This document shows positions 20,917-36,211 of a DNA stretch of 64,000 nt, piece by piece (the stretch's first letter is position 1; each line of letters begins with the position of its first letter). This DNA comes from Sinorhizobium sojae CCBAU 05684. Lineage in GTDB: Bacteria > Pseudomonadota > Alphaproteobacteria > Rhizobiales > Rhizobiaceae. A program made the position numbers and the translations under genes. The notes beneath the pieces were generated by a model. The model did not search any database. It had not been told where the DNA came from and saw only the letters and a list, made by a program, of their open reading frames with translations. The stretch covers positions 124,001 through 188,000 of the forward strand of contig NZ_CP023067.1 of assembly GCF_002288525.1 (NCBI RefSeq), in the 5' to 3' direction.

Positions 20917-21073
20917 ACGTTCACTGAATTGTGCGCTCTGAGATGGTCAAAGCTGCAACCGGTCCGATTCGCCCGTGTTGCGGCTTTGCCCGCATCGGCT
21001 GAACCGCTTCACGATGAGGGCATTCCCCTCCCATGGCGCTTCCGATGATGGTCGACGACAGAGGCGAGAGACA

Positions 21074-24000
21074 ATGAACGGATCGCGATCCAATTCTCAG
21101 CGCATGGGCAACCCGTCCTATGGCGACAGGTCCTCGCTCGATGCCCTCAATCGCACCATCGAGGGGCTTGAGGCACGCATCGAAGGCCTGATGAGCAGCG
21201 TCAGCCGTGAGCCGCGTCAGCCGGAGAGGCCGCACGCACCGGCCAACAATCCGGTGTCCGAGATCCTCCAGCGCCAACGCGTACTTAGTGCCGGTCGCGA
21301 GCGCTCGCCATTGCGAGAGCATCTGGCCGCGCGCGAAGCAGAGCGTTCGGCTCCCGCCAGGCACCCGGAAGCGCGATTTCAGCCGCATTCGCCTGTGCCG
21401 GCACCGGCCCGAACCTCCGCGGCTAACGAGATCGCCGAGGCGCTCGTGGGTTTGCGGCAGGATCTGAAGCGCGAGATCAGCGACGGTCTTGTACGGGAGA
21501 TGCATACGCTTCACTCCGAAATCCGCGGCATCAGGTCCGAGGTGGCACAGGACCGCGGCTTTGCCGCTGACGTCCGGTCCGACATGCAGCGCCTCGCCGA
21601 AAGCATCAACCAGCTCGGCCGGCTTGCACCCTCGGCCCAGGCGGACGCGTTGAGGGCCGAGTTTGACGACCTTCGCGCGACGCTTGACGGTTTGGCGCGC
21701 GAAGACAGCATGCGCCGCATGGAGAACCGCTGGAGCGGGGTCGAGGACCGGCTGAACGCCTTCGACCAGAACCGCGACGATGAACTCGTGGCGCTCGCCT
21801 ATCGGCTCGACGAGATCAAGACGCAGATCACGTCGCTGAACAAGGGCCCCGCGATCGACGCCTTGGAGGATAAGCTGGTGGCGGTTGCCCAGGCGGTCGA
21901 GCAGCTCGGACGCCAGATGCAACCGGACGATCGCCGCCTGGCTTCGCAATTTGCCGAGCTCGATGCGCGGCTCGACGAAATCAGCCGGGCGATTGCAGTC
22001 AACGGCCGCAGTTCCGGCACGGACACGACCTTCGTCAATCGCCTCGAAAGCAGGCTCGGCGATCTCTCGCGTCAGATCGACAGTCTCTCCCGCCCCTACG
22101 ATACCGGCCTCGGTTCCAGGATCGAGGCGCTGACGGCGCGCGTCGAGGATCTGGCCGGCGAGAGGGCGGCCGCCCGGCTCGAGGAGCGCCTCGACCACCT
22201 CTCAGCTGTTCTGGAGCGCGGCCAGCGCAGTGCCGATCCGGAGCTCACCGGTTATCTTGCCGAAATCTCGCGCAAGATAGAAGCGCTTGACCAGGGGAGC
22301 CTAAACGACGCGCTCGTCGAAAGGCTCGATTACCTCGCCCGCCGCATCGACGAACTGGATGCACAAGCCGAAGCGCCGATAAGCGATACCCGCTTCGACC
22401 GGCTCGAAGACCGACTTGCCGACATCGCGCAGCGCCTGGAGGAAACGCAGGCTGCTCCCTTCGACGATCGCGAAGCCCTGCGCAATCTCGAAGCGCAGAT
22501 CAGCAATCTCTCTACGCTTGTGAGCCAGTCGCATGGGGAGCCCGGTCGGGCGGCGCCGGCGGAGTTCGAAAGCCGCATGAATGCGCTTGAAGACTATCTG
22601 GCCACCAGCGACGAATACATCATCGAAGCCGCTCGGCAGGCGGCTGAAGCGGTGATGGAGGCCTATTCCAAGAACGTCTCTTCGCAGGCGGCGACAGGAT
22701 CCGACATGGCCGCAATCTCTGCGCTTGCCGAAGACCTGCGCGCGCTCGAGGAGCTCAGCCGTTCGAGCGACGACAGGACTGCACGTACCTTCGAAGCCCT
22801 GCATGACACGCTCGTCCACATCGCCGAAAAGCTGGAGCGCCTGGAAGAGGGGCGGCCGCAACAGGGGCACGCCGCACCGGCAATGCCGAAGGCCGCCCAA
22901 CCCGAATTCGAAGGTCCGCTTACGGCTGCCGATCCCGACCATGGCCATGGCGAGGTGCAGCGCAACGTACGGGCGCTGGAGGCGGAGGATAAGGATTTCG
23001 TTGCGGAACCCGTTGCGGCCGAGGCCACGGCTTCGGTGGATATTTCGATCGTAGAGCGGGCCGAGCAACGGGTGGAGGCACAGCCCGCAAAGGCAGGTCT
23101 GCTGGCAGGCCTGACCCGGCGTTTTTCTTCCAGGCGCAACGCGGCGCCTCCGGCGCAGGCGCGCCGGCTCGTCGAGCCGACTCCGTCGATCGACCCCTCC
23201 GAAATGCTCGCCCCCGAGGAGGCCAATCTGCTTCTTGAGCCCGGCTCCGGAGCTCCGGATGTCAAAAAGATCCTCGAGCGGGTCCGGGCCGGTCAAATGG
23301 CGCGTGGCGGCCAGCAGGCGCCCGGTGGCGACAAGGCGGATTTCATCGCCGCTGCACGCCGTGCGGCACAACTTGCCGTCGAGGAGGCCGACACGCTGAA
23401 CCGGGCCAAGGACAACAAGGCGCCCTCGGCGCTGCGTGGCGCATTGGTCCGCCATCGCCGCCCGATCCTCATGGCTGTCGGCGCCGTGCTGTTGGCGATC
23501 ATGTCCTATCCGCTCGTCAGCACGGTGCTGAAGGGCAACGAGACACCGGGCGCCCAACCGACCGTCATGATCGAGCGGCAGGTTGAAGTTGAAGGCGCTC
23601 AGCAGAAAACCGTCAACACGGCAGAAGCCGTTCCCGCCGCAGCCTCCGAGAAGACCGCTGAAAAGCCGGCGCTCGAGGCGGGCGAGACACCGGCAGAGTC
23701 CGTGCAGGCCGCCTCCGCCACCGGGCAGGACGATGCTGCAAGTCCCGCCGCGGGTAGCGCGGGCGCTGCACCTCTGCTGCAGCCGCGGGTAGAGGCAATG
23801 GGTCCTGTTTCATCATTCGAACCCTCCCCGCAGGCCGTGGTTACCGCGCCCGAGCATGCTAAGGTGACCGACGTCGTTCTGCCGGATGGATTTGGTCCGC
23901 CTGCACTCGTGACGGCAGCCAAGGGCGGTGATCCGCTGGCCTTCTACGAGATCGGCGCACGCTTCACCGAGGGCCGAGGCGTGAAGGAGGATTTAACCGA

Positions 24001-24727
24001 GGCGGCCAAATGGTATCAGCGTGCGGCCGATGCAGGTGTCGTGCCGGCGGACTACAGGCTCGCCAATCTTTACGAAAAAGGGGCTGGCGTCGAGCGCGAC
24101 ACCGCCAAGGCAAAGGCGCTCTACCTGAAGGCTGCGGAAGCGGGCAATGCGAGTGCGATCCACAACCTCGCCGTCATGCTGGCGAGCGGACGCGACGGCG
24201 CTCCGGATTTCGTGGAGGCGGGTAAGTGGTTCGAGAAGGCCGCCAATTTCGGCGTCCGCGACAGCCAGTTCAATCTCGCAGTGCTCTATGCCCGCGGCAA
24301 CGGCGTCGCCCAGAGTCTCGAGGAGTCCTACAAGTGGTTTGCCATCGCAGCCGGTGGCGGCGACAAGGACGCCGCCGAAAAGCGGGACGAGATCGCCAGG
24401 GCGATGAAGCCCGAAGAGCTTTCGAGCGCCAAGGCGAAGGCCGAAGCATGGAAGGCACAGCCGGTCGATGCCAAGGCCAATACGGTCGAGGTGCCGGACG
24501 CCTGGGTCGGGCCCTCAACCAAAACGGCATCGATCGACATGACCAAGGCTGTGCGCAACATCCAGGCCATCCTCAACAATAACGGCTTCGATGCCGGCCC
24601 GGCGGATGGGCAGATGGGCAAGAAGACGATCGCCGCGATCAAGGCCTTCCAGAAATCGATCGACCAGGAACCGACCGGGGAGATCACGGACGCGCTGGTG
24701 AGGGAGCTGTTGAAGCGCAATTCCTAG
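21074..24727 (+). CDS. podJ: Polar organelle development protein PodJ
   Basis: Large polarity scaffold that marks a cell pole and organises cell-division or envelope proteins. The 1,217-residue protein shows PodJ architecture. A long cytoplasmic coiled-coil region (about 20-640) has repeated E-x-R-L-D-x-L-A / RIDELD heptads. An Ala/Pro-rich part follows, then a single transmembrane helix at about 796-815 (ILMAVGAVLLAIMSYPLVS). The periplasmic part has Sel1/TPR-like repeats at about 935-1110 (KEDLTEAAKWYQRAADAG and three similar units) and a C-terminal peptidoglycan-binding domain (1156-1217; NNNGFDAGPADGQMGKKTI). MNGSRS was taken as start after GAGGCGAGAG. Neighbouring fad genes match the arrangement I recall around S. 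meliloti podJ1. Confidence 0.88.
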   Translation: MNGSRSNSQRMGNPSYGDRSSLDALNRTIEGLEARIEGLMSSVSREPRQPERPHAPANNPVSEILQRQRVLSAGRERSPLREHLAAREAERSAPARHPEARFQPHSPVPAPARTSAANEIAEALVGLRQDLKREISDGLVREMHTLHSEIRGIRSEVAQDRGFAADVRSDMQRLAESINQLGRLAPSAQADALRAEFDDLRATLDGLAREDSMRRMENRWSGVEDRLNAFDQNRDDELVALAYRLDEIKTQITSLNKGPAIDALEDKLVAVAQAVEQLGRQMQPDDRRLASQFAELDARLDEISRAIAVNGRSSGTDTTFVNRLESRLGDLSRQIDSLSRPYDTGLGSRIEALTARVEDLAGERAAARLEERLDHLSAVLERGQRSADPELTGYLAEISRKIEALDQGSLNDALVERLDYLARRIDELDAQAEAPISDTRFDRLEDRLADIAQRLEETQAAPFDDREALRNLEAQISNLSTLVSQSHGEPGRAAPAEFESRMNALEDYLATSDEYIIEAARQAAEAVMEAYSKNVSSQAATGSDMAAISALAEDLRALEELSRSSDDRTARTFEALHDTLVHIAEKLERLEEGRPQQGHAAPAMPKAAQPEFEGPLTAADPDHGHGEVQRNVRALEAEDKDFVAEPVAAEATASVDISIVERAEQRVEAQPAKAGLLAGLTRRFSSRRNAAPPAQARRLVEPTPSIDPSEMLAPEEANLLLEPGSGAPDVKKILERVRAGQMARGGQQAPGGDKADFIAAARRAAQLAVEEADTLNRAKDNKAPSALRGALVRHRRPILMAVGAVLLAIMSYPLVSTVLKGNETPGAQPTVMIERQVEVEGAQQKTVNTAEAVPAAASEKTAEKPALEAGETPAESVQAASATGQDDAASPAAGSAGAAPLLQPRVEAMGPVSSFEPSPQAVVTAPEHAKVTDVVLPDGFGPPALVTAAKGGDPLAFYEIGARFTEGRGVKEDLTEAAKWYQRAADAGVVPADYRLANLYEKGAGVERDTAKAKALYLKAAEAGNASAIHNLAVMLASGRDGAPDFVEAGKWFEKAANFGVRDSQFNLAVLYARGNGVAQSLEESYKWFAIAAGGGDKDAAEKRDEIARAMKPEELSSAKAKAEAWKAQPVDAKANTVEVPDAWVGPSTKTASIDMTKAVRNIQAILNNNGFDAGPADGQMGKKTIAAIKAFQKSIDQEPTGEITDALVRELLKRNS

Positions 24728-24769
24728 CATCGGCCCGAAGAACGCATCCGATTTTCGGAAAGCTCGGTG

Positions 24770-24829
24770 TGCAGATTCAAAGAGTTGCAGCGATCTTTGC
24801 GCGTCTGAAAAGACGCGCGGCGCTGTAAC
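24770..24829 (-). repeat. RIME-like fragment, copy 4 (reverse orientation)
   Basis: Reverse-oriented copy: GTGCAGATTCAAAGAG (linker) followed by palindrome 1, TTGCAGCG...GCGCGTCT-GAAA-AGACGCGC...GCGCTGTAA. The second palindrome is missing. It lies 42 bp past podJ and its GCGCGTCT / AGACGCGC hairpin could act as a transcription stop. Confidence 0.7.
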
Positions 24830-25265: not shown

Positions 25266-26192
25266 GTGACGGTCTATCTGCCCATCGCAGAGTTGTCGGT
25301 GAATATCTTCGTCATTCTCGGCATGGGCGCGGCTGTCGGTTTTCTGTCCGGCATGTTCGGGGTTGGCGGCGGGTTCCTGATCACGCCGCTGCTGATCTTC
25401 TACAACATTCCGCCGGTGGTGGCAGTGGCGACCGGCGCCAACCAGGTGGTCGCCTCGTCGATCTCCGGCGCGATCACGCATTTCCGCCGCGGCACGATCG
25501 ACGTCAAGCTCGGCACCGTGCTTCTCGGTGGCGGCCTTGTGGGGGCCACCGTCGGCGTCTGGCTGTTCTCGCTGCTGCGCCGCATGGGCCAGCTGGATCT
25601 GGTGATCTCGCTGCTCTATGTCGTGCTGCTCGGCTCGGTCGGCGGGTTGATGCTCTGGGAGAGCGTGGGCGCCATGCGCAAGGCCGCCAAGAACCTGCCG
25701 ACCGCCCTGCGCCGGCCCGGACAGCATATCTGGATCCACGGCTTGCCGCTGAAGATGCGCTTCAAGAAGTCGAAGATCTATCTGAGCGTCATTCCGGTCG
25801 CCACGCTCGGCTTCTTCATCGGCATGCTGACCTCGATCATGGGCGTCGGCGGCGGCTTCATCATGGTGCCGGCGATGATCTATCTGTTGCGCATCCCGAC
25901 CAATGTCGTCGTCGGCACTTCGCTGTTCCAGATCGTCTTCGTTTCCGCCTACACCGTCCTCGTCCAGGCGTCGACGAACTACACGGTCGACATCGTGCTC
26001 GCCTTCGTGCTGATGATCGCCGGCGTCATCGGGGCGCAATACGGCGTGCGCGTGGGCCAGCGGCTGCGCGGCGAACAGTTGCGGGCGCTGCTGGCGCTGC
26101 TCGTGCTCGCCGTCGGCATCCGTCTCGCCATCGATCTCGTCATTCCGCCGGAGGATGTCTATTCGGTCGTCTCAGCGGGGTTCGGCTACTGA
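25266..26192 (+). CDS. TSUP (TauE/SafE) family sulfite/organosulfonate exporter, copy 1
   Basis: Inner-membrane permease of the TSUP family; members move sulfite, sulfate, sulfoacetate or related anions. The 308-residue protein has about eight hydrophobic helices and the twofold family signature: GFLSGMFGVGGGFLITPLL in the first half and GMLTSIMGVGGGFIMVPAM in the second. It starts at GTG (VTVYLPIAELSVN); ATG-type extensions upstream have no family match. Its stop overlaps the next gene's ATG (TGATG), so the pair is translationally coupled. From codon 3 on it is identical to the second copy 5,478 bp downstream; only residue 2 differs (T here, N there). Confidence 0.88.
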   Translation: MTVYLPIAELSVNIFVILGMGAAVGFLSGMFGVGGGFLITPLLIFYNIPPVVAVATGANQVVASSISGAITHFRRGTIDVKLGTVLLGGGLVGATVGVWLFSLLRRMGQLDLVISLLYVVLLGSVGGLMLWESVGAMRKAAKNLPTALRRPGQHIWIHGLPLKMRFKKSKIYLSVIPVATLGFFIGMLTSIMGVGGGFIMVPAMIYLLRIPTNVVVGTSLFQIVFVSAYTVLVQASTNYTVDIVLAFVLMIAGVIGAQYGVRVGQRLRGEQLRALLALLVLAVGIRLAIDLVIPPEDVYSVVSAGFGY

Positions 26193-27007
26193 TGGTCGCA
26201 TGCCTCCGCCTTCCCCTGACAGCCCTCGTTCTCGCCGTCGCCGCGCCGGCCGCGGCACAGGCGCCGGCGCGGCCCCTGGAGCGGCAGACCACGAACTTCA
26301 ACGAGAAGCTGGAGATCGGCATCTCCACCGACGAGATCGCCATCACCTCCGACTTTCGCGGTGCGGACCTGACGATCTTCGGCGCAATCGACGGCTTCGA
26401 TCCCAACCTTCTCGCCCAGGGCAAATACAACATCGTCGTCACGCTCGAGGGCCCGAAGGACAATGCGACGGTGCGCAAGAAGGAACGCGTCTTCGGCATC
26501 TGGGTCAACATGCAGTCGATGACCTTCGAGCTGGTTCCCGAGGCCTATTCGCTGTCGAGCACGCGCGACATCGGCACGATCGCGCCGCCGCGCGACATTG
26601 CCAATATGGGGATCGGCGTCGATCACATGCGCCTGGTGCCGCTCGGCTTCTTCGGCGACGGCAGCAACCTCGGCGAGTTCCGCAACGCCTTCCGGCGCCT
26701 GCGGGAGGAAACCGGCGTCTACCAGCGCGATCCGGGCGGCGTGCAGTTCATCAGTTCGAGCCTGTTCAAGGCCTCGGTGCGGCTGCCGGCCAACGTGCCG
26801 AACGGCATTCACGTCGTGCGTGGCTATCTGTTCCGGGATGGGCTGTTCGTCGCCGCCAAGGCGCTGTCGCTGCGGGTCGTCAAGACCGGTCTCGAACAGG
26901 CGATCACCCGGGCCGCACATGACCAGCCCGTCGCCTACGGCCTCTTCGCCGTGGCGCTGGCGGTCATCACCGGTTGGGGCGCAAGCCTGCTCTTCCGCAA
27001 GGATTAG
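25272..27007 (+). repeat. Direct repeat R1 (1,736 bp), left copy
   Basis: The segment from codon 3 of the TSUP gene to the last base of the TIGR02186 stop codon recurs at 30750-32485 at a constant offset of 5,478. No mismatch was found in the stretches compared, and translations in several reading frames agree throughout. Sequence diverges at once beyond both ends (GGGC versus CTTG on the right). There is no transposase, inverted terminal repeat or visible target-site duplication, so this is not an insertion sequence. Confidence 0.95.
26192..27007 (+). CDS. TIGR02186 family membrane-anchored protein, copy 1
   Basis: A 271-residue protein of the uncharacterised TIGR02186 family, which regularly follows TSUP permease genes. 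It has a signal peptide (LRLPLTALVLAVAAPAAAQA), a periplasmic beta-rich domain (ISTDEIAITSDFRGADLTIFG; GPKDNATVRKKERVFGIWVN) and a C-terminal transmembrane helix (YGLFAVALAVITGWGASLLF) ending RKD. It probably assists the TSUP transporter, for instance as a periplasmic partner; no biochemical role is known to me. The ATG overlaps the TSUP stop. The whole gene is duplicated without visible change downstream. Confidence 0.85.
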   Translation: MVACLRLPLTALVLAVAAPAAAQAPARPLERQTTNFNEKLEIGISTDEIAITSDFRGADLTIFGAIDGFDPNLLAQGKYNIVVTLEGPKDNATVRKKERVFGIWVNMQSMTFELVPEAYSLSSTRDIGTIAPPRDIANMGIGVDHMRLVPLGFFGDGSNLGEFRNAFRRLREETGVYQRDPGGVQFISSSLFKASVRLPANVPNGIHVVRGYLFRDGLFVAAKALSLRVVKTGLEQAITRAAHDQPVAYGLFAVALAVITGWGASLLFRKD

Positions 27008-27039
27008 GGCATTTTGCGTATTTTGATTCTCAGCGCTCC

Positions 27040-27104
27040 TACAGCGCCGCGTCTTATCGGACGCGCAAGGCACGTTGAAGGGGTCGGTCTAAGGAGACAT
27101 GCAG
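27040..27104 (+). repeat. RIME-like repeat, copy 5 (internally deleted)
   Basis: Palindrome 1 (TACAGCGCCGCGTCTTATCGGACGCGC) runs straight into the end of palindrome 2 (GGTCGGTCTAAGGAGACATGCAG); the linker and left arm of palindrome 2 are missing. It begins 33 bp after R1 ends, at the left junction of the choline-sulfate module. Bases 27089-27104 also encode the last residues and stop codon of the LysR gene on the minus strand. Confidence 0.75.
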
Positions 27105-28015
27105 TGAAGCCCGACTGCAGCTTTCGCCTCGCTCACTAACCAGTTGCCGAGGCGGCTGACAGGTTGGCTCGCTCGCTCAGGCTGGATCAGACAGTAGCCG
27201 CGCTCGCGGACCTCGAGAGTGGGGCCGACGGGCACCAGAAGGCCCGAGGAAATGTGTTCATCCACGAGGCCCTTCCACCCGATCGCGATGCCTTGGCCGC
27301 CGACCGCGGCCTGCACGACGAGCGAATAGGTGTTGAAGCTGAGATCGACATGTCCCGACTGTACAGCTCTGACCGCCTTGAAATGCGATAAATAGGTGCG
27401 CCATTCGAACCAGGGCGAGGGTGCGGAACTGTCGAGATGGATCAGGGTCGATCTTGCAAGCGACGAGACATCTCCGAATGGGCCGTGATGTTCGGCGAAA
27501 GCGGGGGTACACACGGGCATGACCGCTTCCGGCAAGAGCAAGATGACATCGTCGCCGAAGTCGCGCTGCGCGCCGAAGGCGACTGCGATATCGTTTTCTC
27601 TCAACAGCTCCCGCTCAAGTCTTTGCGTTGCAACGATCTGGATGTCCAGCTCCGGATACAGCAGCCGGAAACTATGCATTCGAGGCATCAGCCAGAGCGA
27701 AGCAAACGCGTAATCCGTCAGCAAGCGGATCGTCGATCTTTCCTGGTCGGCGCGAAAAACGCGAACGGCGTCGTCGATTTCGTCGATCGCCCGTTTCGCA
27801 ATATCGTAAAGCCTCTGGCCCGCGGACGTGAGTTCGACGCCCCGGTGCACGCGGGCCAGCAGATCCACGCCGATCTGATCCTCTATCCGTCGAATTTGAT
27901 AGCTGATCGCCGGCTGCGAAATTTTCAGGGCAGCCGCAGCGGATGTCAGGTTGCCACGCTTTGCCACCTCCACAAACAGCCGCAGCCAGCCGAGATCCAC
28001 CAGTCGTTGTCTCAT
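27089..28015 (-). CDS. LysR-family regulator of choline-sulfate utilisation
   Basis: LysR-type regulator, 308 residues. The N-terminal winged helix reads LRLFVEVAKRGNLTSAAAAL and KISQPAISYQIRRIEDQIGV, with an effector-binding domain after about residue 90. Genomic position, divergent from a ChoX-like protein and a choline sulfatase, matches the regulator family annotated for choline-sulfate use. The protein should bind in the 100-bp AT-rich divergent region (28016-28115). The last residues (HCMSP) and the stop lie inside a RIME-like repeat, so the natural C-terminus may have been replaced or extended. The inducer (choline sulfate or choline) is inferred. Confidence 0.85.
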   Translation of the reverse strand: MRQRLVDLGWLRLFVEVAKRGNLTSAAAALKISQPAISYQIRRIEDQIGVDLLARVHRGVELTSAGQRLYDIAKRAIDEIDDAVRVFRADQERSTIRLLTDYAFASLWLMPRMHSFRLLYPELDIQIVATQRLERELLRENDIAVAFGAQRDFGDDVILLLPEAVMPVCTPAFAEHHGPFGDVSSLARSTLIHLDSSAPSPWFEWRTYLSHFKAVRAVQSGHVDLSFNTYSLVVQAAVGGQGIAIGWKGLVDEHISSGLLVPVGPTLEVRERGYCLIQPERASQPVSRLGNWLVSEAKAAVGLHCMSP

Positions 28016-28115
28016 AGAAAAACCTTATGGGAAAGATCAAGAAAACCCGACTTCACAGGGATTTAGAATAGCGGCAGGAATACGGAAATCAAATAGTTCA
28101 GGGAGTAACACGAAC

Positions 28116-29060
28116 ATGAATTCAGTTTGCGCCCGCTTCGCGATCGGGCTGTTTCTGTCGCTTGCCGGTATGGCGCCACTCCACGCTGCAGAGCACGAGG
28201 CCTGCAAGGTGATCCGCATGTCCGACCCGGGCTGGACGGACATCACTGCAACGAATGCCGTCGCGAGCGTCCTGCTCGAGGCACTGGGCTATGAGCCTGA
28301 CATCAAAACGCTCTCCGTGCCTATCGGCTACGAGTCGATGAAGAACGGGGATATCGACGTCTTCCTCGGCAACTGGATGCCGGCCCAGAGCGCCTTCGTC
28401 GAGGACCTGAAGAAGGCTGACGCCGTCGAGATCGTCAACCGCAATCTTGAGGGAGCCAAGTTCACACTGGCTGTACCTTCCTATGTCGCGGAACGCGGCA
28501 TCAAGGACTTCTCCGATCTCCAAAAGTATGGTGAAGAGTTCGAGCGCCTGATCTATGGTATCGAGGCGGGCGCGCCGGCCAATGCCAGCATCGAAAAAAT
28601 GATCGAGGCTAACGATTTCGGCCTCGGTGATTGGCAGCTGGTAGCCTCCAGCGAACAGGGGATGCTTTCCCAGGTGGATCGAGCGGCAGCGAAGAAAGGG
28701 TACATCGTCTTTCTCGCCTGGGCGCCGCATCCCATGAACAACCGTTTTGATATCACCTATCTGTCCGGTGGCGACGTCTATTTCGGGCCCAATTACGGTG
28801 GCGCGGAGGTCTACACGCTTGCACGGACCGGTTGGCCGAAGATGTGCCCCAACGGTGCCACCCTGTTCAAGAATCTGACCTTTGACATAGCAATGGAAAA
28901 CATGCTGATGGGCAAGATCCTGGAAGGCGAGGAACCGAAGGAAGCCGCAGCAGCTTGGCTCAACGAAAATCCGCAATCGCTCGAAAAGTGGCTCGCGGGC
29001 GTTACGACCTTCGACGGCGGTCCTGGATTGGCCAGCGTCAAGGCATCTCTCGGACTCTAA
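28116..29060 (+). CDS. Choline-type ABC transporter substrate-binding protein (ChoX-like)
   Basis: Periplasmic binding protein of the OpuAC/ChoX type, 314 residues. The signal peptide (FAIGLFLSLAGMAPLHA) is followed by cysteine-containing CKVIRMSDPGWTDITATN. The aromatic cage expected for quaternary amines is present at W40, W87 (FLGNWMPAQ) and W202 (AWAPHPMN), with D42 beside the first. Aligning by the constant offset of three to S. meliloti ChoX (W43, D45, W90, W205, from memory) puts F116 where ChoX has a tyrosine. No ChoW permease or ChoV ATPase gene is near, so it must borrow a membrane complex. betC lies 116 bp downstream. The start follows GGGAG. Confidence 0.87.
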   Translation: MNSVCARFAIGLFLSLAGMAPLHAAEHEACKVIRMSDPGWTDITATNAVASVLLEALGYEPDIKTLSVPIGYESMKNGDIDVFLGNWMPAQSAFVEDLKKADAVEIVNRNLEGAKFTLAVPSYVAERGIKDFSDLQKYGEEFERLIYGIEAGAPANASIEKMIEANDFGLGDWQLVASSEQGMLSQVDRAAAKKGYIVFLAWAPHPMNNRFDITYLSGGDVYFGPNYGGAEVYTLARTGWPKMCPNGATLFKNLTFDIAMENMLMGKILEGEEPKEAAAAWLNENPQSLEKWLAGVTTFDGGPGLASVKASLGL

Positions 29061-29176
29061 GCGGACTTGCGTGGCTTCGCGCGCACCATCTGCTTGGTGT
29101 TTTGTTTTGTCGCAGGTTTTGTCGGAAAGCCGTCGGACGCCGTTCCGAAACCTGCTTAGACTGAAGGAAGAATCCA

Positions 29177-30688
29177 ATGACGCGGCCAAACATCCTGATC
29201 CTTATGGTCGACCAGTTCAACGGAACTCTGTTTCCTGATGGTCCCGCCGATTTTCTGCATGCGCCTCATCTCAAGGCCTTGGCAGAGCGGTCGGTTCGCT
29301 TTGCCAGTGCCTACACTGCCAGTCCGCTTTGCGCTCCGGCGCGGGCATCCTTCATGTCCGGTCAGCTCCCAAGCCGCACGCGCGTCTACGACAACGCGGC
29401 CGAATTTGCCTCGGACATACCGACCTATGCGCACCACCTCAGAGCCGCAGGATATCAGACTTGCCTCTCGGGAAAGATGCACTTCGTCGGGCCAGATCAA
29501 CTGCATGGTTTTGAAGAACGGCTGACGACGGATATCTATCCGGCGGATTTCGGCTGGACGCCGGACTACCGCAAACCGGGGGAGCGCATCGACTGGTGGT
29601 ATCACAATCTCGGTTCCGTCACCGGTGCCGGGGTTGCCGAGATCACCAATCAGATGGAATACGACGACGAAGTGGCCTACAACGCAACCCGCAAGCTCTA
29701 CGACCTTGCGCGCGGAAATGACGATCGACCGTGGAGCCTGACGGTCAGCTTCACGCATCCGCACGATCCCTATGTGGCTCGCAAGCGCTTCTGGGATCTC
29801 TACCAGGATTGTGCTGCGCTTGACCCGAAGATCGGGCCCATTCCCTTTGAGCAGCAGGATCCGCATTCCCAGCGCCTATTGGAGGCTTGCGACCACCGGT
29901 CATTCGACATTTCGGCGGATGACGTACGGCGCGCACGGCGCGGATATTTCGCCAGCATCTCCTACGTGGACGAGAAAATCGGCGAGATTCTCGACGTGCT
30001 CGAGCGCACCGGCATGGCCGAGAATACCGCCATACTTTTCGTCTCCGACCATGGCGACATGCTGGGAGAACGTGGCCTCTGGTTCAAGATGAGCTTCTTC
30101 GAAGGCTCGGCGCGCGTGCCGCTGATGATATCGGCGCCTGGCTGGAAGCCCGGCAGGCTAGATGCTCCGGTGTCGACGCTCGACGTGACGCCTACGGTCG
30201 CCTCCATCGCCGGCTTGGACATCACCTCGATCCTCCCTTGGACCGATGGCGAGGATCTCGCGCCGGTGGTGCGTGGTGAGACCGACCGGGGTCCCGTGCC
30301 GATGGAATACGCGGCAGAAGGGTCGGTGGCGCCGCTCGTCGGACTGCGATCGGGAGCATACAAATTGACGCTCTGCGACAAGGACCCGCCGCTGCTGTTC
30401 GACGTCAGCTCAGATCCTGATGAATTGACGGACCTTGCGCAGGACGCGGATCACAGGGAAGCCCTTACCAGCTTGCTGGCCGAAGCAAATAGGCGTTGGA
30501 GCCTCGCTGCCTTTGACGCCGCAGTGCGTGAAAGCCAAGCCCGTCGCTGGGTGGTGTATCCGGCGCTCAGGAACGGCTCCTATTACCCATGGGATTTCCA
30601 GCCGTTGCAGAAGGCCTCCGAGCGATACATGCGCAACCATATGGATCTCAACGTGCTTGAGGAAAAGCAGCGGTACCCTCGGGATTGA
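29177..30688 (+). CDS. betC: Choline sulfatase
   Basis: Alkaline-phosphatase-fold sulfatase that hydrolyses choline-O-sulfate to choline and sulfate, feeding glycine-betaine synthesis and sulfur supply. The 503-residue protein has metal-binding D12 in LMVDQFNGTLFPDG. The formylglycine signature is C52-A-P-A-R in SPLCAPARAS, with HPHDPY and DHGDMLGERGLWFK also present. The choline-sulfatase C-terminal tail YYPWDFQPLQKASERYMRNH separates it from other sulfatases. In S. meliloti betC normally lies in betICBA; here it is with a regulator and binding protein and without betB/betA. The TSUP gene of R2 starts 55 bp downstream, so co-transcription is possible. Confidence 0.94.
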   Translation: MTRPNILILMVDQFNGTLFPDGPADFLHAPHLKALAERSVRFASAYTASPLCAPARASFMSGQLPSRTRVYDNAAEFASDIPTYAHHLRAAGYQTCLSGKMHFVGPDQLHGFEERLTTDIYPADFGWTPDYRKPGERIDWWYHNLGSVTGAGVAEITNQMEYDDEVAYNATRKLYDLARGNDDRPWSLTVSFTHPHDPYVARKRFWDLYQDCAALDPKIGPIPFEQQDPHSQRLLEACDHRSFDISADDVRRARRGYFASISYVDEKIGEILDVLERTGMAENTAILFVSDHGDMLGERGLWFKMSFFEGSARVPLMISAPGWKPGRLDAPVSTLDVTPTVASIAGLDITSILPWTDGEDLAPVVRGETDRGPVPMEYAAEGSVAPLVGLRSGAYKLTLCDKDPPLLFDVSSDPDELTDLAQDADHREALTSLLAEANRRWSLAAFDAAVRESQARRWVVYPALRNGSYYPWDFQPLQKASERYMRNHMDLNVLEEKQRYPRD

Positions 30689-30743
30689 GGCGGACGCGAT
30701 GCTCGTCCCATAGAGATCATTCCACGTCATCGGGATCCCGCCA

Positions 30744-31670
30744 GTGAACGTCTATCTGCCCATCGCAGAGTTGTCGGTGAATATCTTCGTCATTCTCGGC
30801 ATGGGCGCGGCTGTCGGTTTTCTGTCCGGCATGTTCGGGGTTGGCGGCGGGTTCCTGATCACGCCGCTGCTGATCTTCTACAACATTCCGCCGGTGGTGG
30901 CAGTGGCGACCGGCGCCAACCAGGTGGTCGCCTCGTCGATCTCCGGCGCGATCACGCATTTCCGCCGCGGCACGATCGACGTCAAGCTCGGCACCGTGCT
31001 TCTCGGTGGCGGCCTTGTGGGGGCCACCGTCGGCGTCTGGCTGTTCTCGCTGCTGCGCCGCATGGGCCAGCTGGATCTGGTGATCTCGCTGCTCTATGTC
31101 GTGCTGCTCGGCTCGGTCGGCGGGTTGATGCTCTGGGAGAGCGTGGGCGCCATGCGCAAGGCCGCCAAGAACCTGCCGACCGCCCTGCGCCGGCCCGGAC
31201 AGCATATCTGGATCCACGGCTTGCCGCTGAAGATGCGCTTCAAGAAGTCGAAGATCTATCTGAGCGTCATTCCGGTCGCCACGCTCGGCTTCTTCATCGG
31301 CATGCTGACCTCGATCATGGGCGTCGGCGGCGGCTTCATCATGGTGCCGGCGATGATCTATCTGTTGCGCATCCCGACCAATGTCGTCGTCGGCACTTCG
31401 CTGTTCCAGATCGTCTTCGTTTCCGCCTACACCGTCCTCGTCCAGGCGTCGACGAACTACACGGTCGACATCGTGCTCGCCTTCGTGCTGATGATCGCCG
31501 GCGTCATCGGGGCGCAATACGGCGTGCGCGTGGGCCAGCGGCTGCGCGGCGAACAGTTGCGGGCGCTGCTGGCGCTGCTCGTGCTCGCCGTCGGCATCCG
31601 TCTCGCCATCGATCTCGTCATTCCGCCGGAGGATGTCTATTCGGTCGTCTCAGCGGGGTTCGGCTACTGA
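30744..31670 (+). CDS. TSUP (TauE/SafE) family sulfite/organosulfonate exporter, copy 2
   Basis: Second copy of the TSUP permease, 308 residues, identical to copy 1 from codon 3 onward; residue 2 is Asn instead of Thr. It has the same two G-V-G-G-G signature loops. It starts at GTG within CCAGTGAAC, without a recognisable ribosome site, 55 bp after betC on the same strand. Placed here, it could export sulfate or sulfite released by choline-sulfate breakdown, but that substrate is inferred from neighbourhood only. The stop overlaps the following ATG exactly as in copy 1. Confidence 0.88.
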   Translation: MNVYLPIAELSVNIFVILGMGAAVGFLSGMFGVGGGFLITPLLIFYNIPPVVAVATGANQVVASSISGAITHFRRGTIDVKLGTVLLGGGLVGATVGVWLFSLLRRMGQLDLVISLLYVVLLGSVGGLMLWESVGAMRKAAKNLPTALRRPGQHIWIHGLPLKMRFKKSKIYLSVIPVATLGFFIGMLTSIMGVGGGFIMVPAMIYLLRIPTNVVVGTSLFQIVFVSAYTVLVQASTNYTVDIVLAFVLMIAGVIGAQYGVRVGQRLRGEQLRALLALLVLAVGIRLAIDLVIPPEDVYSVVSAGFGY

Positions 31671-32485
31671 TGGTCGCATGCCTCCGCCTTCCCCTGACAG
31701 CCCTCGTTCTCGCCGTCGCCGCGCCGGCCGCGGCACAGGCGCCGGCGCGGCCCCTGGAGCGGCAGACCACGAACTTCAACGAGAAGCTGGAGATCGGCAT
31801 CTCCACCGACGAGATCGCCATCACCTCCGACTTTCGCGGTGCGGACCTGACGATCTTCGGCGCAATCGACGGCTTCGATCCCAACCTTCTCGCCCAGGGC
31901 AAATACAACATCGTCGTCACGCTCGAGGGCCCGAAGGACAATGCGACGGTGCGCAAGAAGGAACGCGTCTTCGGCATCTGGGTCAACATGCAGTCGATGA
32001 CCTTCGAGCTGGTTCCCGAGGCCTATTCGCTGTCGAGCACGCGCGACATCGGCACGATCGCGCCGCCGCGCGACATTGCCAATATGGGGATCGGCGTCGA
32101 TCACATGCGCCTGGTGCCGCTCGGCTTCTTCGGCGACGGCAGCAACCTCGGCGAGTTCCGCAACGCCTTCCGGCGCCTGCGGGAGGAAACCGGCGTCTAC
32201 CAGCGCGATCCGGGCGGCGTGCAGTTCATCAGTTCGAGCCTGTTCAAGGCCTCGGTGCGGCTGCCGGCCAACGTGCCGAACGGCATTCACGTCGTGCGTG
32301 GCTATCTGTTCCGGGATGGGCTGTTCGTCGCCGCCAAGGCGCTGTCGCTGCGGGTCGTCAAGACCGGTCTCGAACAGGCGATCACCCGGGCCGCACATGA
32401 CCAGCCCGTCGCCTACGGCCTCTTCGCCGTGGCGCTGGCGGTCATCACCGGTTGGGGCGCAAGCCTGCTCTTCCGCAAGGATTAG
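30750..32485 (+). repeat. Direct repeat R2 (1,736 bp), right copy
   Basis: Right-hand copy of R1 in the same orientation. Between the copies lie 3,742 bp holding the LysR, ChoX-like and betC genes. The right edge continues into the AsnC-domain gene region, probably the ancestral continuation of the locus. The left edge joins the 3' flank of betC within a few bases of the TSUP start codon. The high identity implies recent duplication or ongoing gene conversion. Confidence 0.95.
31670..32485 (+). CDS. TIGR02186 family membrane-anchored protein, copy 2
   Basis: Second copy of the TIGR02186 gene, 271 residues, with no amino-acid difference from copy 1: signal peptide, periplasmic domain and C-terminal helix are the same. 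It ends exactly at the repeat border, so the two copies share no 3' flank. It is coupled by overlap to the upstream TSUP gene. Two unaltered copies suggest either very recent duplication or homogenisation. Confidence 0.85.
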   Translation: MVACLRLPLTALVLAVAAPAAAQAPARPLERQTTNFNEKLEIGISTDEIAITSDFRGADLTIFGAIDGFDPNLLAQGKYNIVVTLEGPKDNATVRKKERVFGIWVNMQSMTFELVPEAYSLSSTRDIGTIAPPRDIANMGIGVDHMRLVPLGFFGDGSNLGEFRNAFRRLREETGVYQRDPGGVQFISSSLFKASVRLPANVPNGIHVVRGYLFRDGLFVAAKALSLRVVKTGLEQAITRAAHDQPVAYGLFAVALAVITGWGASLLFRKD

Positions 32486-32658
32486 CTTGGCGCCTCATCC
32501 GGCTGGCCGGTAGCGCCGCGGCGAAGAGGCCGGCATTTCCTTTTGCCCTGTTGCGGTTTATGGAAGCGCGCGACAGTATCGAGCGACAACCTGACCGATC
32601 GAAGAGGCGGGAGAAGCGCCATGCAGCCGCGCCCGCGCCCGGAAAGCAGAGGAACCCC

Positions 32659-32895
32659 ATGAAGCCGATTTTCGTGCAATTGCAATGCGCCCCCGGCAAG
32701 ACCTACGAAGTGGCAGACGAGATCTACCGCAAGGAAATCGTCTCGGAGATGTATTCGACCAGCGGCGATTATGACCTGCTTCTGAAGATCTATGTCGAGG
32801 AGGGCCAGGACGTCGGCAAGTTCATCAACGACAATATCGCCAGCGTTCCGGGCATCTCCCGTTCGTTGACGACGCTCACCTTCAACGCGTTCTGA
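32659..32895 (+). CDS. Stand-alone Lrp/AsnC effector-binding (RAM) domain protein
   Basis: A 78-residue protein made only of the AsnC-type ligand-binding alpha-beta fold: MKPIFVQLQCAPGKTYEVAD, YSTSGDYDLLLKIYVEEGQD and a C-terminal SRSLTTLTFNAF. The DNA-binding helix-turn-helix of full Lrp proteins is absent. Such stand-alone domains may sense amino acids and associate with full-length Lrp proteins. The ATG is preceded by AGAGGA. It follows R2 by 173 bp, where nothing else was recognised, and converges on pdeM. Confidence 0.85.
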   Translation: MKPIFVQLQCAPGKTYEVADEIYRKEIVSEMYSTSGDYDLLLKIYVEEGQDVGKFINDNIASVPGISRSLTTLTFNAF

Positions 32896-32901
32896 GAGCC
32901 T

Positions 32902-33624
32902 TTATCCGAGTAGGTTTGCGAAGCGGACCGAGTAGATCCGGTCGCGCCCCATCATGTGGGCGACAAGGTGCTGGCGGTCGAATATTCCGTTCATGGCGCG
33001 GTGCCTGAGGTCCAGTGCGCCGGTGGTGACGCCGAAGGCAGGCATGAGCAGCCGTTTGCCGTCCGTCGCAAAACAGGCCCGGCGAACCGATCTCTCCCGG
33101 CGCCGGACGGTGGCCGAGGGATGCAGGTGGCCGGCGATCTCGCCGACGCCGTCCACCCTTGACGGCTCGTGCCGGAAGACGAGCCCCGCATGGCGGAGCT
33201 CGTCCATCGAGGCGCCGGGCAGTCCGTGTGCGCCATCGGGGTCGTGATTGCCATTGATCCAGATCCACTCGCGGCCTTGCGCCATTGAGCAGATCACCTG
33301 GCGAAAGTTCTCCGGCATTGCCGCCGATCCGGTGCGATCATGGAAGTTGTCGCCGAGGCTGATCACGGTCGCTGGATCGTGGCGGGCAATGACCGCCTCG
33401 AGGATACGCAGCGTCGCGATCGTGTCATAGGGCGGCAGCATCATGCCGCGGCGGGCGAAGGCGGAGCCTTTTTCCAGGTGAAGGTCGGAGACGACCAGGG
33501 TTCGGCTCTCGGGCAGATAGAGGCCCCCCAGCGCATCGCAGATGGCGGCGACGCCGTTGATCGTCGTGCGTGCCTGGAAAAAGGCGTTCGCCGGGGCCGA
33601 TGCCGCATGGACGAGCCGATGCAT
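32902..33624 (-). CDS. pdeM: Ligase-associated DNA damage response endonuclease PdeM
   Basis: Metallophosphoesterase of the PdeM type, 240 residues. The full set of metal ligands is visible: VVSDLHLEKG (D-x-H), SLGDNFHD (G-D), INGNHDPDG (G-N-H-D) and AGHLHPSA (G-H-x-H). The ATG at 33624 is 8 bp after the helicase stop and preceded by a purine-rich AGGACAGGA. PdeM genes typically form a unit with a DEXH helicase, an exonuclease and an ATP-dependent DNA ligase; only the helicase is present here. The role in DNA repair is inferred from that family association. Confidence 0.87.
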   Translation of the reverse strand: MHRLVHAASAPANAFFQARTTINGVAAICDALGGLYLPESRTLVVSDLHLEKGSAFARRGMMLPPYDTIATLRILEAVIARHDPATVISLGDNFHDRTGSAAMPENFRQVICSMAQGREWIWINGNHDPDGAHGLPGASMDELRHAGLVFRHEPSRVDGVGEIAGHLHPSATVRRRERSVRRACFATDGKRLLMPAFGVTTGALDLRHRAMNGIFDRQHLVAHMMGRDRIYSVRFANLLG

Positions 33625-33631
33625 TCCTGTC

Positions 33632-36211
33632 CTATTCCTCCTTGAGGCCCATTGCCTCGCTGATAAGCTCATCGGCCGCTTCCGTGAGCAGGAAGTCCTG
33701 CGCTTCTCCATGAACCGATTCCCGCCCGATTTCCAGCATCACCGGCACGGCGAGCGGCGAGATGCGGTCGAGTCGGCGATGGCTGACGTGACCTTTGATC
33801 CGCTTCAGCATGGAGCCGAGCCGGTCGATGTCCAGGAGGCCCGTCGCCGCGTCGTTCCTGGTCGCCTCCAGGAGAATGTGGTCCGGCTCGTGCATCCGCA
33901 ATACGTCGTAAATGAGGTCGGCGGAAACCGTGATCTGCCGGCCGGTCTTCTCCTTGCCCGGGTGGCGTTGATCGATGAGGCCTGCGATGACTGCGCAATT
34001 GCGGAACGTACGCTTCAGAAGGAAGGATTCGTTCAGCCAGGCCTCGAGATCGTCCCCCAGCATGTCCTCGTCGAGGAGTTCCGCGAGCGAAGGCGCCCCG
34101 GTCCGGAAGGCCGCGCCCAAATCGTCGAGCGCCCAGACGGCGAGCGAATAGTCGGTGGCGACGAAGCCGAGCGGCTTCAGCCCGGCGCGATCGAGCCGGC
34201 GGGTGATGAGCATGCCGAGCGTCTGGTGTGCGAGCCGGCCTTCGAAGGCATAGATCACCATGTAATGGCGGCTGCCGCGCGGGAAGGTCTCGACCAGGAG
34301 CTCGTCCTCGCGCGGGAGCATAGAGACGTCCTCTTGCAGCGCCAGCCAGTCGCGCACCTGGTCCGGAAGTGGCCCGCGGCGGATGGGCTCGGCGAGCATT
34401 TTTCGCACCTGCGCCGCGAGATAGGTCGAAAGCGGGAACTTGCCGCCGGCATAGCTCGGCACCTTCGGATCGAAGGAAAAGGCCGGCGAGACGAGGCACT
34501 CGTTCTCGCGGATACCCTCGAAGCGCAGAACCTTGCCGGAGAAGAGAAACGTGTCGCCTGGCGATAGCATTTCAAGGAAATACTCTTCCACCTTGCCGAG
34601 AGACATGCCGCCCCGGCGGAGCGAGCCGCGCGCATTGCGCTTCACCAGACGGACGTTCAGCATCGGCGATTCCACGATCGTCCCGACATTCAGCCGGTAT
34701 TGCTGCGCCACCATCGGGTTCGACACCCGCCAGAGCCCTTCCTTCGTCTTGCGGATGCGGGCGTAACGCTCATAGGTCCTGAGCGCATAGCCGCCGGTGG
34801 CGACGAGATCGACGACCCGTTCGAAGGTTTCCCAGGAGAGGGCGCGGTAGGGCAGGGCGCTGGCGATCTCCGCGTGCAGTTCGACCGCGTCGAAGGGACT
34901 GGCGCAGGCCATGCCGAGCACATGTTGCGCGAGCACGTCGAGCGCACCCCTGCCGATCGGCGGCGTATCCTGCGCGCCGATATAGTTGGCGTCCAGCGCC
35001 GCCTGGCATTCCATCACCTCGAATCGGTTGGCCGGAACGAGGATGGCGCGGCTCGGCTCGTCCATGCGATGATTGGCGCGGCCGATGCGCTGGGCGAGAC
35101 GACTAGCGCCTTTCGGCGCGCCGACATGGACGACCAGATCGACATCACCCCAATCGATGCCGAGATCGAGCGTCGAGGTGGCGACGACGGCGCGCAGACG
35201 GTTCTCGGCCATTGCCGCCTCCACCCTGCGGCGCTGGGCCACATCGAGCGAGCCGTGGTGCAGTGCGATCGGGAGGTTGTCGTCGTTGATGGTCCAGAGC
35301 TCCTGGAACAGCATTTCCGCCTGGCTGCGTGTATTGACGAAGAGCAACGTCGTGCCATGCGCCTTGATCGCTTCGTAAACATCGGCGATCGCGTAGCGGG
35401 CAGAATGCCCGGCCCAAGGCACGTGATTGTCGCTGCGCAGGACGGAAATCTCCGGCTTGGCGCCGCCGGAAACGGTGATCAGTCCGGCATGGTCGTCGCT
35501 GTCGGGAGCTTGCGCCACCAGCCAGCGCTGCAGTTCCATCGGCTCGGCGACCGTTGCCGAAAGCCCGATCGACTGCAGGCGGGGTGCGAGCCGCCGTAGC
35601 CGCGCGATGCCGAGGGAAAGCAGATGCCCTCGCTTCGACGTCACCAGCGAGTGCAATTCATCAAGCACGACATAGCGCAGGTCCTTGAAGAAGCGTTCCG
35701 CCTCCGCATCGGCGAGAAGCAGCGCGAGCTGCTCGGGGGTCGTCAGCAATATGTCGGGCGGGTTCAGCTTCTGCCGCTGGCGCTTGCCCTGCGGCGTGTC
35801 GCCGGTGCGGTTTTCGACCCGGACGGGGAGGTCCATCTCACCGACGGGCTTCATCAGGTTGCGCTCGATGTCCACGGCGAGCGCCTTCAGCGGAGAGATA
35901 TAGAGCGTGTGGATGCCGACAAAGGCCGAGCCCGGCGGCATCCTGCCGCGCCGGGTGAGGTCGACGAGGGAGGGCAGGAAGCCGGCAAGCGTCTTGCCAG
36001 CGCCGGTCGGCGCGATCAGAAGCGTGCTTTCCCCCGCTTCCGCATGGGAGAGCAATTCGAGCTGATGGGTGCGCGGTCGCCAGCCCTTGTCGGCAAACCA
36101 CCGGCGAAAGGGCGCCGGCAACGTCAGAGCGTCACTATCGCGCAATGGGGAATCGATCCTGTCCACGGGGAACAAAGGTAGATCATGTCCGGCAAAAGAG
36201 AAGCCGTTCAA
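33632..36211 (-). CDS. Ligase-associated DNA damage response DEXH-box helicase (Lhr-like)
   Basis: Superfamily 2 helicase of 859 residues. Motifs include Walker A APTGAGKTLAGFLPSL, VLDELHSL (DELH box), GLSATVAEP (motif III), TSTLDLGIDWGDVDLVVHVG and RLAQRIGRANHR (motif VI). A large C-terminal Lhr-like region follows. The length fits the ligase-associated helicase class and not the 1,500-residue Lhr. The start is a TTG with CGGCGGA upstream; a GTG 15 codons in is an alternative. It is probably co-transcribed with pdeM (7-bp gap). The matching ligase and exonuclease genes are not in the window. Confidence 0.9.
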   Translation of the reverse strand: MNGFSFAGHDLPLFPVDRIDSPLRDSDALTLPAPFRRWFADKGWRPRTHQLELLSHAEAGESTLLIAPTGAGKTLAGFLPSLVDLTRRGRMPPGSAFVGIHTLYISPLKALAVDIERNLMKPVGEMDLPVRVENRTGDTPQGKRQRQKLNPPDILLTTPEQLALLLADAEAERFFKDLRYVVLDELHSLVTSKRGHLLSLGIARLRRLAPRLQSIGLSATVAEPMELQRWLVAQAPDSDDHAGLITVSGGAKPEISVLRSDNHVPWAGHSARYAIADVYEAIKAHGTTLLFVNTRSQAEMLFQELWTINDDNLPIALHHGSLDVAQRRRVEAAMAENRLRAVVATSTLDLGIDWGDVDLVVHVGAPKGASRLAQRIGRANHRMDEPSRAILVPANRFEVMECQAALDANYIGAQDTPPIGRGALDVLAQHVLGMACASPFDAVELHAEIASALPYRALSWETFERVVDLVATGGYALRTYERYARIRKTKEGLWRVSNPMVAQQYRLNVGTIVESPMLNVRLVKRNARGSLRRGGMSLGKVEEYFLEMLSPGDTFLFSGKVLRFEGIRENECLVSPAFSFDPKVPSYAGGKFPLSTYLAAQVRKMLAEPIRRGPLPDQVRDWLALQEDVSMLPREDELLVETFPRGSRHYMVIYAFEGRLAHQTLGMLITRRLDRAGLKPLGFVATDYSLAVWALDDLGAAFRTGAPSLAELLDEDMLGDDLEAWLNESFLLKRTFRNCAVIAGLIDQRHPGKEKTGRQITVSADLIYDVLRMHEPDHILLEATRNDAATGLLDIDRLGSMLKRIKGHVSHRRLDRISPLAVPVMLEIGRESVHGEAQDFLLTEAADELISEAMGLKEE

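Follow-up and report, generated by a model that had tools for sequence, protein, structure and literature searches.

Two identical copies of a TSUP-TIGR02186 gene pair flank a choline sulfate utilisation module in Sinorhizobium sojae: probable gene conversion at an old insertion

The window analysed here, a 64-kb stretch of the Sinorhizobium sojae CCBAU 05684 genome, carries a set of genes for choline sulfate use between two direct copies of a gene pair that encodes a TSUP (TauE/SafE) family protein and a TIGR02186/PF09608 protein. We refer to this gene pair as R (R_A upstream and R_B downstream), to the LysR-choX-betC insert between the copies as I, and to the conserved upstream and downstream neighbours as U and D. 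Base-by-base comparison at an offset of 5,478 bp showed that positions 25272-27007 (R_A) and 30750-32485 (R_B), which are separated by 3,742 bp, are identical at 1,736 of 1,736 bases. Both the direct duplication and its gene content agree with a preliminary description of this DNA, which did not mention that the identity ends where the two-gene coding unit ends. It extends from codon 2 of the TSUP gene to the final base of the stop codon of the TIGR02186 gene; counted from the GTG starts (25266 and 30744), 1,740 of 1,742 bases are equal, both mismatches fall in codon 2 (ACG versus AAC), and the DNA beyond both repeat ends is unrelated between the copies. An arbitrary duplication would not be expected to yield identity fitted this closely to a two-gene unit. 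R_A/R_B is the sole repeat family reported in the window (20-bp seed, 40-bp minimum), and genome-wide (6.09 Mb, 3 contigs) the R repeat is found at exactly two places. The locus is composed as follows.

20975-24727, plus strand: U, conserved upstream neighbour, gene for a large Sel1-repeat/peptidoglycan-binding protein (Pfam Sel1, PG_binding_1); precedes R at the 44 loci without an insert
25266-26192, plus strand: first gene of R_A, TSUP (TauE/SafE) family, resident copy (PF01925, 4.3e-51); clusters with R from the clade's core loci
26192-27007, plus strand: second gene of R_A, TIGR02186/PF09608 protein, resident copy (TIGR02186, 405.3 bits, cut-off 255.25; PF09608)
27008-27088, no strand: left junction, from the R_A stop codon to lysR; length and sequence vary among relatives
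27089-28015, minus strand: LysR regulator of choline sulfate use (TIGR03418, 329.1 bits, cut-off 324.8)
28116-29060, plus strand: choX-type choline substrate-binding protein (TIGR03414, 431.4 bits, cut-off 379.05)
29177-30688, plus strand: betC choline sulfatase (TIGR03417, 879.8 bits, cut-off 433.45)
30689-30743, no strand: betC-R_B spacer, 55 bp; near-identical in contig C230 and recognisable in the module of genome G003
30744-31670, plus strand: first gene of R_B, TSUP family, at the modules' usual R position; only codon 2 differs from R_A
31670-32485, plus strand: second gene of R_B, TIGR02186 protein; same as R_A through the stop codon
32659-32895, plus strand: D, conserved downstream neighbour, Lrp/AsnC ligand-binding-domain protein (Pfam AsnC_trans_reg on the longer open reading frame 32452-32895; LrpA matches below cut-off)
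32902-33711, minus strand: D, conserved downstream neighbour, PdeM-like phosphoesterase (TIGR04123, 216.7 bits, cut-off 150)

The regulator, binding protein, and sulfatase all score above their NCBIfam cut-offs (TIGR03418, TIGR03414, and TIGR03417), which identifies I as a choline sulfate utilisation module.

R was present in all 33 of the 33 genus genomes, with the window's genome counted. We surveyed 52 named loci with a TIGR02186 relative and found U-R-D without the module at 44 of them, some with other DNA between R and the AsnC gene; these are the empty sites that the preliminary description had led us to expect in relatives. The remaining eight are those of Ensifer sp. LCM 4579, S. kostiense, contig C305 of a metagenome-assembled genome (MAG), contig C230, S. 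shofinae, Rhizobium sp. J15, the second R of Ensifer sp. IC4062, and a distant locus (33%) in Marinicaulis. Four relatives (LCM 4579, genome G017, S. kostiense, and C305) have U-R-I-D, in which R_A is the only copy and betC passes directly to D, and a pattern of two diverged copies in the same places throughout the relatives was not seen. The S. shofinae locus reads U-gap-I-R-D, contig C230 contains the end of choX, betC, and R, and both G003 and E. aridi carry an empty U-R-D and a separate I-R module. Modules outside the U-R-D locus (contig C1 of G003, contig C23 of E. aridi, and another place in Rhizobium sp. J15) have their own R directly after betC. The empty sites and these separate modules uphold the part of the preliminary description that viewed the layout as a resident R plus an added I-R.

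The junctions of the window are shared with other assemblies: U-R_A and R_A-lysR recur in the four U-R-I-D loci, and betC-R_B recurs in C230. In relatives without the insert, D comes next after R, the R-D spacer being too diverged for base-by-base comparison. C230 has an almost identical 55-bp betC-R spacer, and that of G003 can still be recognised; in genome G019, whose module has no R after betC, part of the spacer survives, up to roughly the start codon. A copy at the R_B place is present behind betC in C230 and in other modules and absent from the four U-R-I-D loci. Shared left flanks of the modules outside this locus were seen only between E. aridi and J15, and no shared right flank was found among the four modules compared. 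In the plasmid collection, none of the 269 matching records covers 80% of the locus. In a sample of 297 genomes of the family, with at most two candidates scored in each, a contiguous betC-R match occurred only in the window's genome among the matches listed.

Phylogenies suggest that the arrangement is old. The U tree and the D tree each unite the window, LCM 4579, G017, C305, and S. kostiense (support, 100), and the betC tree groups the same five loci with C230 and G019, without separating G019. The module is retained at five of the five core loci of the window's clade; because these loci share it on the U, D, and betC trees, it has probably occupied this site since before the clade split. 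The direct passage from betC to D in the four U-R-I-D loci would then reflect two losses of R_B. Within the clade, the R_A-lysR junction differs in length and sequence, and the core-locus module of S. kostiense lacks choX, with its lysR and betC matches lying 11 bp apart. The G019 module (G019:C1:3163719-3167185) is a lysR-choX-betC set with 84 to 88% similarity to the window, without R, at an unrelated place in a genome of another clade, where it likely arrived by horizontal transfer.

The sequence of R_B does not match its position. R_B lies where modules usually carry R, but in the R tree (42 of 43 rows, with IC4062_C89 left out) both window copies and C230 fall inside the clade's resident R (100/99), and the module R of E. 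aridi and J15 form their own branch, apart from resident R. At 53 sites diagnostic for core versus module R, the window R_B is module-like only in codon 2, besides isolated sites that it shares with R_A. Contig C230, a 3.7-kb metagenome contig with 96 to 97% similarity to the window and the same betC-R_B junction, differs from the window at 13 of the first 50 compared columns and at 35 of the following 1,595 (Fisher, 3e-10). Its R is a mosaic with a sharp switch, the first ∼46 bp being non-resident and partly module-like and the rest resident-type. At 15 positions in the 5' end, the C230 base is found at 8 in the E. aridi/J15 module R and at 2 in the clade's core R; 11 are matched once the betC-linked R of G003 and S. 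shofinae are added, and of these 11, 4 are likewise frequent among core R from outside the clade. C230 has a coverage of 5.25. Because the other contigs from the same neighbourhood in its MAG bin (G009) are 77 to 88% similar to the window, it was probably mis-binned, its likely source being a near relative of the window's species.

If the split of the window and C230 lineages marked the last point at which R_A and R_B were alike, 38 differences between them would be expected, and none was observed (P about 3e-17). On this basis we infer that the equalisation of R_B to R_A took place after the two lineages had separated. With the junction shared by C230, the place of R_B appears to be older than its sequence identity, as in a gene-converted duplicate. 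Differences of the TSUP gene from relatives lie mostly in synonymous codons (21 versus 9, 38 versus 5, and 50 versus 6), so constraint does not explain the identity of the two copies.

Other genomes show further states of the same pairing. In G003, the module R and core R differ by 9 mismatches in 1,727 bases (99.48% identity) although they lie on separate contigs of 2.3 and 3.8 Mb, and this near-identity is bounded by codons 2-3 and the stop codon, as in the window. The E. aridi module R and core R, with 264 differences in 1,718 bases (84.63% identity), have not been homogenised. The S. shofinae scaffold is interrupted by single-N gaps at two points, one 12 bases into R_A and one within R (L047:4564 and 10204); an overlap of 220 bp within R has 1 mismatch, and contig C183 terminates in a third 3' piece of R (239 bp, 97.9%). 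We found no R remnant in the ∼1 kb between U and lysR, with the scaffold unreadable at the two gaps. These breaks fit collapsed near-identical copies, two of which the scaffold probably hides, and for this reason S. shofinae is a possible, only suggestive, third case of homogenisation.

Together, these data make it likely that an old insertion was followed by gene conversion of R_B from R_A and that the repeat is not a recent duplication. The R pair would have been resident at a conserved U-R-D locus, and a choline sulfate module with its own R behind betC would have been added beside it before the clade diversified, giving U-R_A-I-R_B-D. R_B would subsequently have been lost in several relatives and kept in the window lineage, where conversion from R_A would have overwritten it as far as the homology extends, from codon 2 to the stop codon. 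The outcome would be one protein pair encoded by two gene copies, R_A preceded by the resident upstream region and R_B preceded, at 55 bp, by betC, so that conversion would keep the two protein pairs alike while their upstream regions differ. An arrival route that would fit this anatomy is a homologous crossover at one end combined with illegitimate joining immediately behind the stop codon of R. The preliminary description had called the repeat recent or homogenised; the absence of the 38 expected differences favours homogenisation, and the presence of the module at five core loci of one clade speaks against recency. The same distribution, together with the location of R_B where modules carry R, also counts against the incomplete duplication proposed there.

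Several points weigh against conversion at an old insertion. The 5' end of C230 is not cleanly module sequence, and the evidence for the mosaic comes from a single 3.7-kb contig of low coverage, binned in a MAG with neighbours of 77 to 88% similarity. Only 8 of the 53 diagnostic sites lie before column 900, in the TSUP gene. Two near-precise losses of R_B are needed, the differing left junctions leave some room for separate insertions, and consensus collapse could hide differences between the interiors of R_A and R_B.

The best of the alternatives is a late gain, in which the ancestor was U-R-I-D and the lineage of the window and C230 acquired R_B afterwards, either as a copy of R_A or through recombination with a betC-R fragment from outside. 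This would replace two losses by one gain on the clade tree and would account for the perfect identity of the copies. We nevertheless regard it as rather unlikely, since R behind betC is the arrangement in the modules of G003, E. aridi, J15, and S. shofinae, with a remnant kept in G019, and simple copying of R_A would not produce the differing 5' end seen in C230. Furthermore, D follows R_B as it follows R in the uninserted locus, an order that U-R-I-D should not be able to supply by homology.

The preliminary description instead proposed a fresh single crossover of an I-R circle into the resident R, with no later conversion. The R-I-R layout, with the insert flanked by direct repeats of the target, is as this predicts, as is the R of C230, which is non-resident in front and resident behind, like the downstream copy of such an event. 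However, the upstream copy should then have a module-type 3' part, and across the R_A of five loci the longest module-type run is two of the 53 sites; the reciprocal hybrid repeats of a Campbell-type integrant are therefore missing. The module is also common to the clade while the copies are identical, and we judge a simple circle crossover very improbable. Conversion may, alternatively, have erased a hybrid R_A at a later time. Least probable of all is an assembly artefact, either a false duplicate or two copies with one collapsed consensus: the S. shofinae gaps count in its favour, but a false layout is unlikely because the window's junctions recur in the four U-R-I-D loci and C230 and R-then-D is the order of relatives without the insert, and in addition the copies differ in codon 2, at a 5' end beside unique DNA where short reads could presumably be placed. 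The repeats encode TauE/SafE and TIGR02186 proteins without a transposase, and a composite transposon was rejected.

Extending conversion at an old insertion beyond the window is more tentative. R might serve as a homology landing place for choline sulfate modules, with U-R-D reached at least twice (in the window's clade and in S. shofinae) and conversion then rewriting the incoming exporter pair with the host version, even between distant loci, as in G003. We consider this conceivable but doubtful; if true, a foreign module would get native membrane proteins yet keep its own place behind betC.

The module also bears on the native choline sulfatase. A second betC type, with 70 to 74% identity to the module betC, is found in 28 of 33 genus genomes, and both types occur in G003, G019, G024, and E. 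aridi. The five genomes without the second type (the window's genome [G000], G009 [70% complete], LCM 4579 [G015], G017, and G029) all have the module betC. In the window's genome (G000:C1:568000-576000), betB and betA, which both exceed their NCBIfam cut-offs, come straight after betI with no betC between, and comparison with G003 indicates the same betC gap in the bet cluster of LCM 4579 (G015:C2:293000-301000). The module betC is the only match to the choline sulfatase query in either genome. Because the bet cluster lacks betC and the module supplies the sole match, the native choline sulfatase seems to have been supplanted by that of the module.

betC and R_B share a strand and lie 55 bp apart, no terminator-like site is listed in this spacer, and the two are likely co-transcribed. 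A terminator-like site between choX and betC (29083-29100) speaks against co-transcription of these two genes, although neither terminator-like sites (5 versus a shuffle mean of 5.9) nor promoter-like sites (1 versus 1.9) are in excess. TSUP proteins include sulfite and sulfonate exporters. Since choline sulfatase frees sulfate, R may export the sulfate or sulfite released by choline sulfate use, a reasonable role in view of family and gene neighbourhood. The association links sulfate-ester use with TIGR02186, an uncharacterised family, and with the TSUP protein that accompanies it.

The process that we propose is already known, and the window is a new natural example with intermediate states. 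Direct nifH repeats in Rhizobium etli recombine by crossover, in which the insert is lost, or by conversion, in which the insert is kept and the repeats are equalised (PMC10932983). The window resembles that system in having direct repeats, in a related genus, at which conversion or crossover is possible; that system was an experimental construct with induced breaks, whereas ours is a natural gene pair analysed by sequence comparison (PMC10932983). Taken together, the loci would document gene conversion in nature in different states: still unconverted in E. aridi (84.63%), almost finished in C230, where a 5' remnant is left, and finished in the window and in G003 (9 differences). They further suggest a route for the domestication of a moving catabolic module, in which its enzyme replaces the native betC and its transporter genes adopt native sequence.

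Choline sulfatase genes are organised differently elsewhere. In the betICBA operon of Sinorhizobium meliloti, choline sulfatase feeds betaine synthesis (PMC12442346); the window's betC instead lies in a LysR-choX-betC-R module, and betI is directly followed by betB and betA. The same source describes a LysR-controlled betC in Pseudomonas (PMC12442346), which the window resembles in having a LysR regulator with betC away from betBA and from which it differs in having R behind betC. Where the window has R, the lysR-choX-betC set of Paracoccus aminovorans has a chloride channel gene. In the library used, literature searches found no paper under the names TIGR02186/PF09608 and none on exporter-sulfatase pairing, and, judged by titles and abstract openings, no paper found describes this arrangement.

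Upstream of R_A, positions 24727-24828 hold an interspersed repeat, ∼100 bp long, that matches about 40 stretches (77 to 94%) in MAG G009 alone and resembles a rhizobial RIME-type element. A copy of this repeat lies between choX and betC in LCM 4579 and G017.

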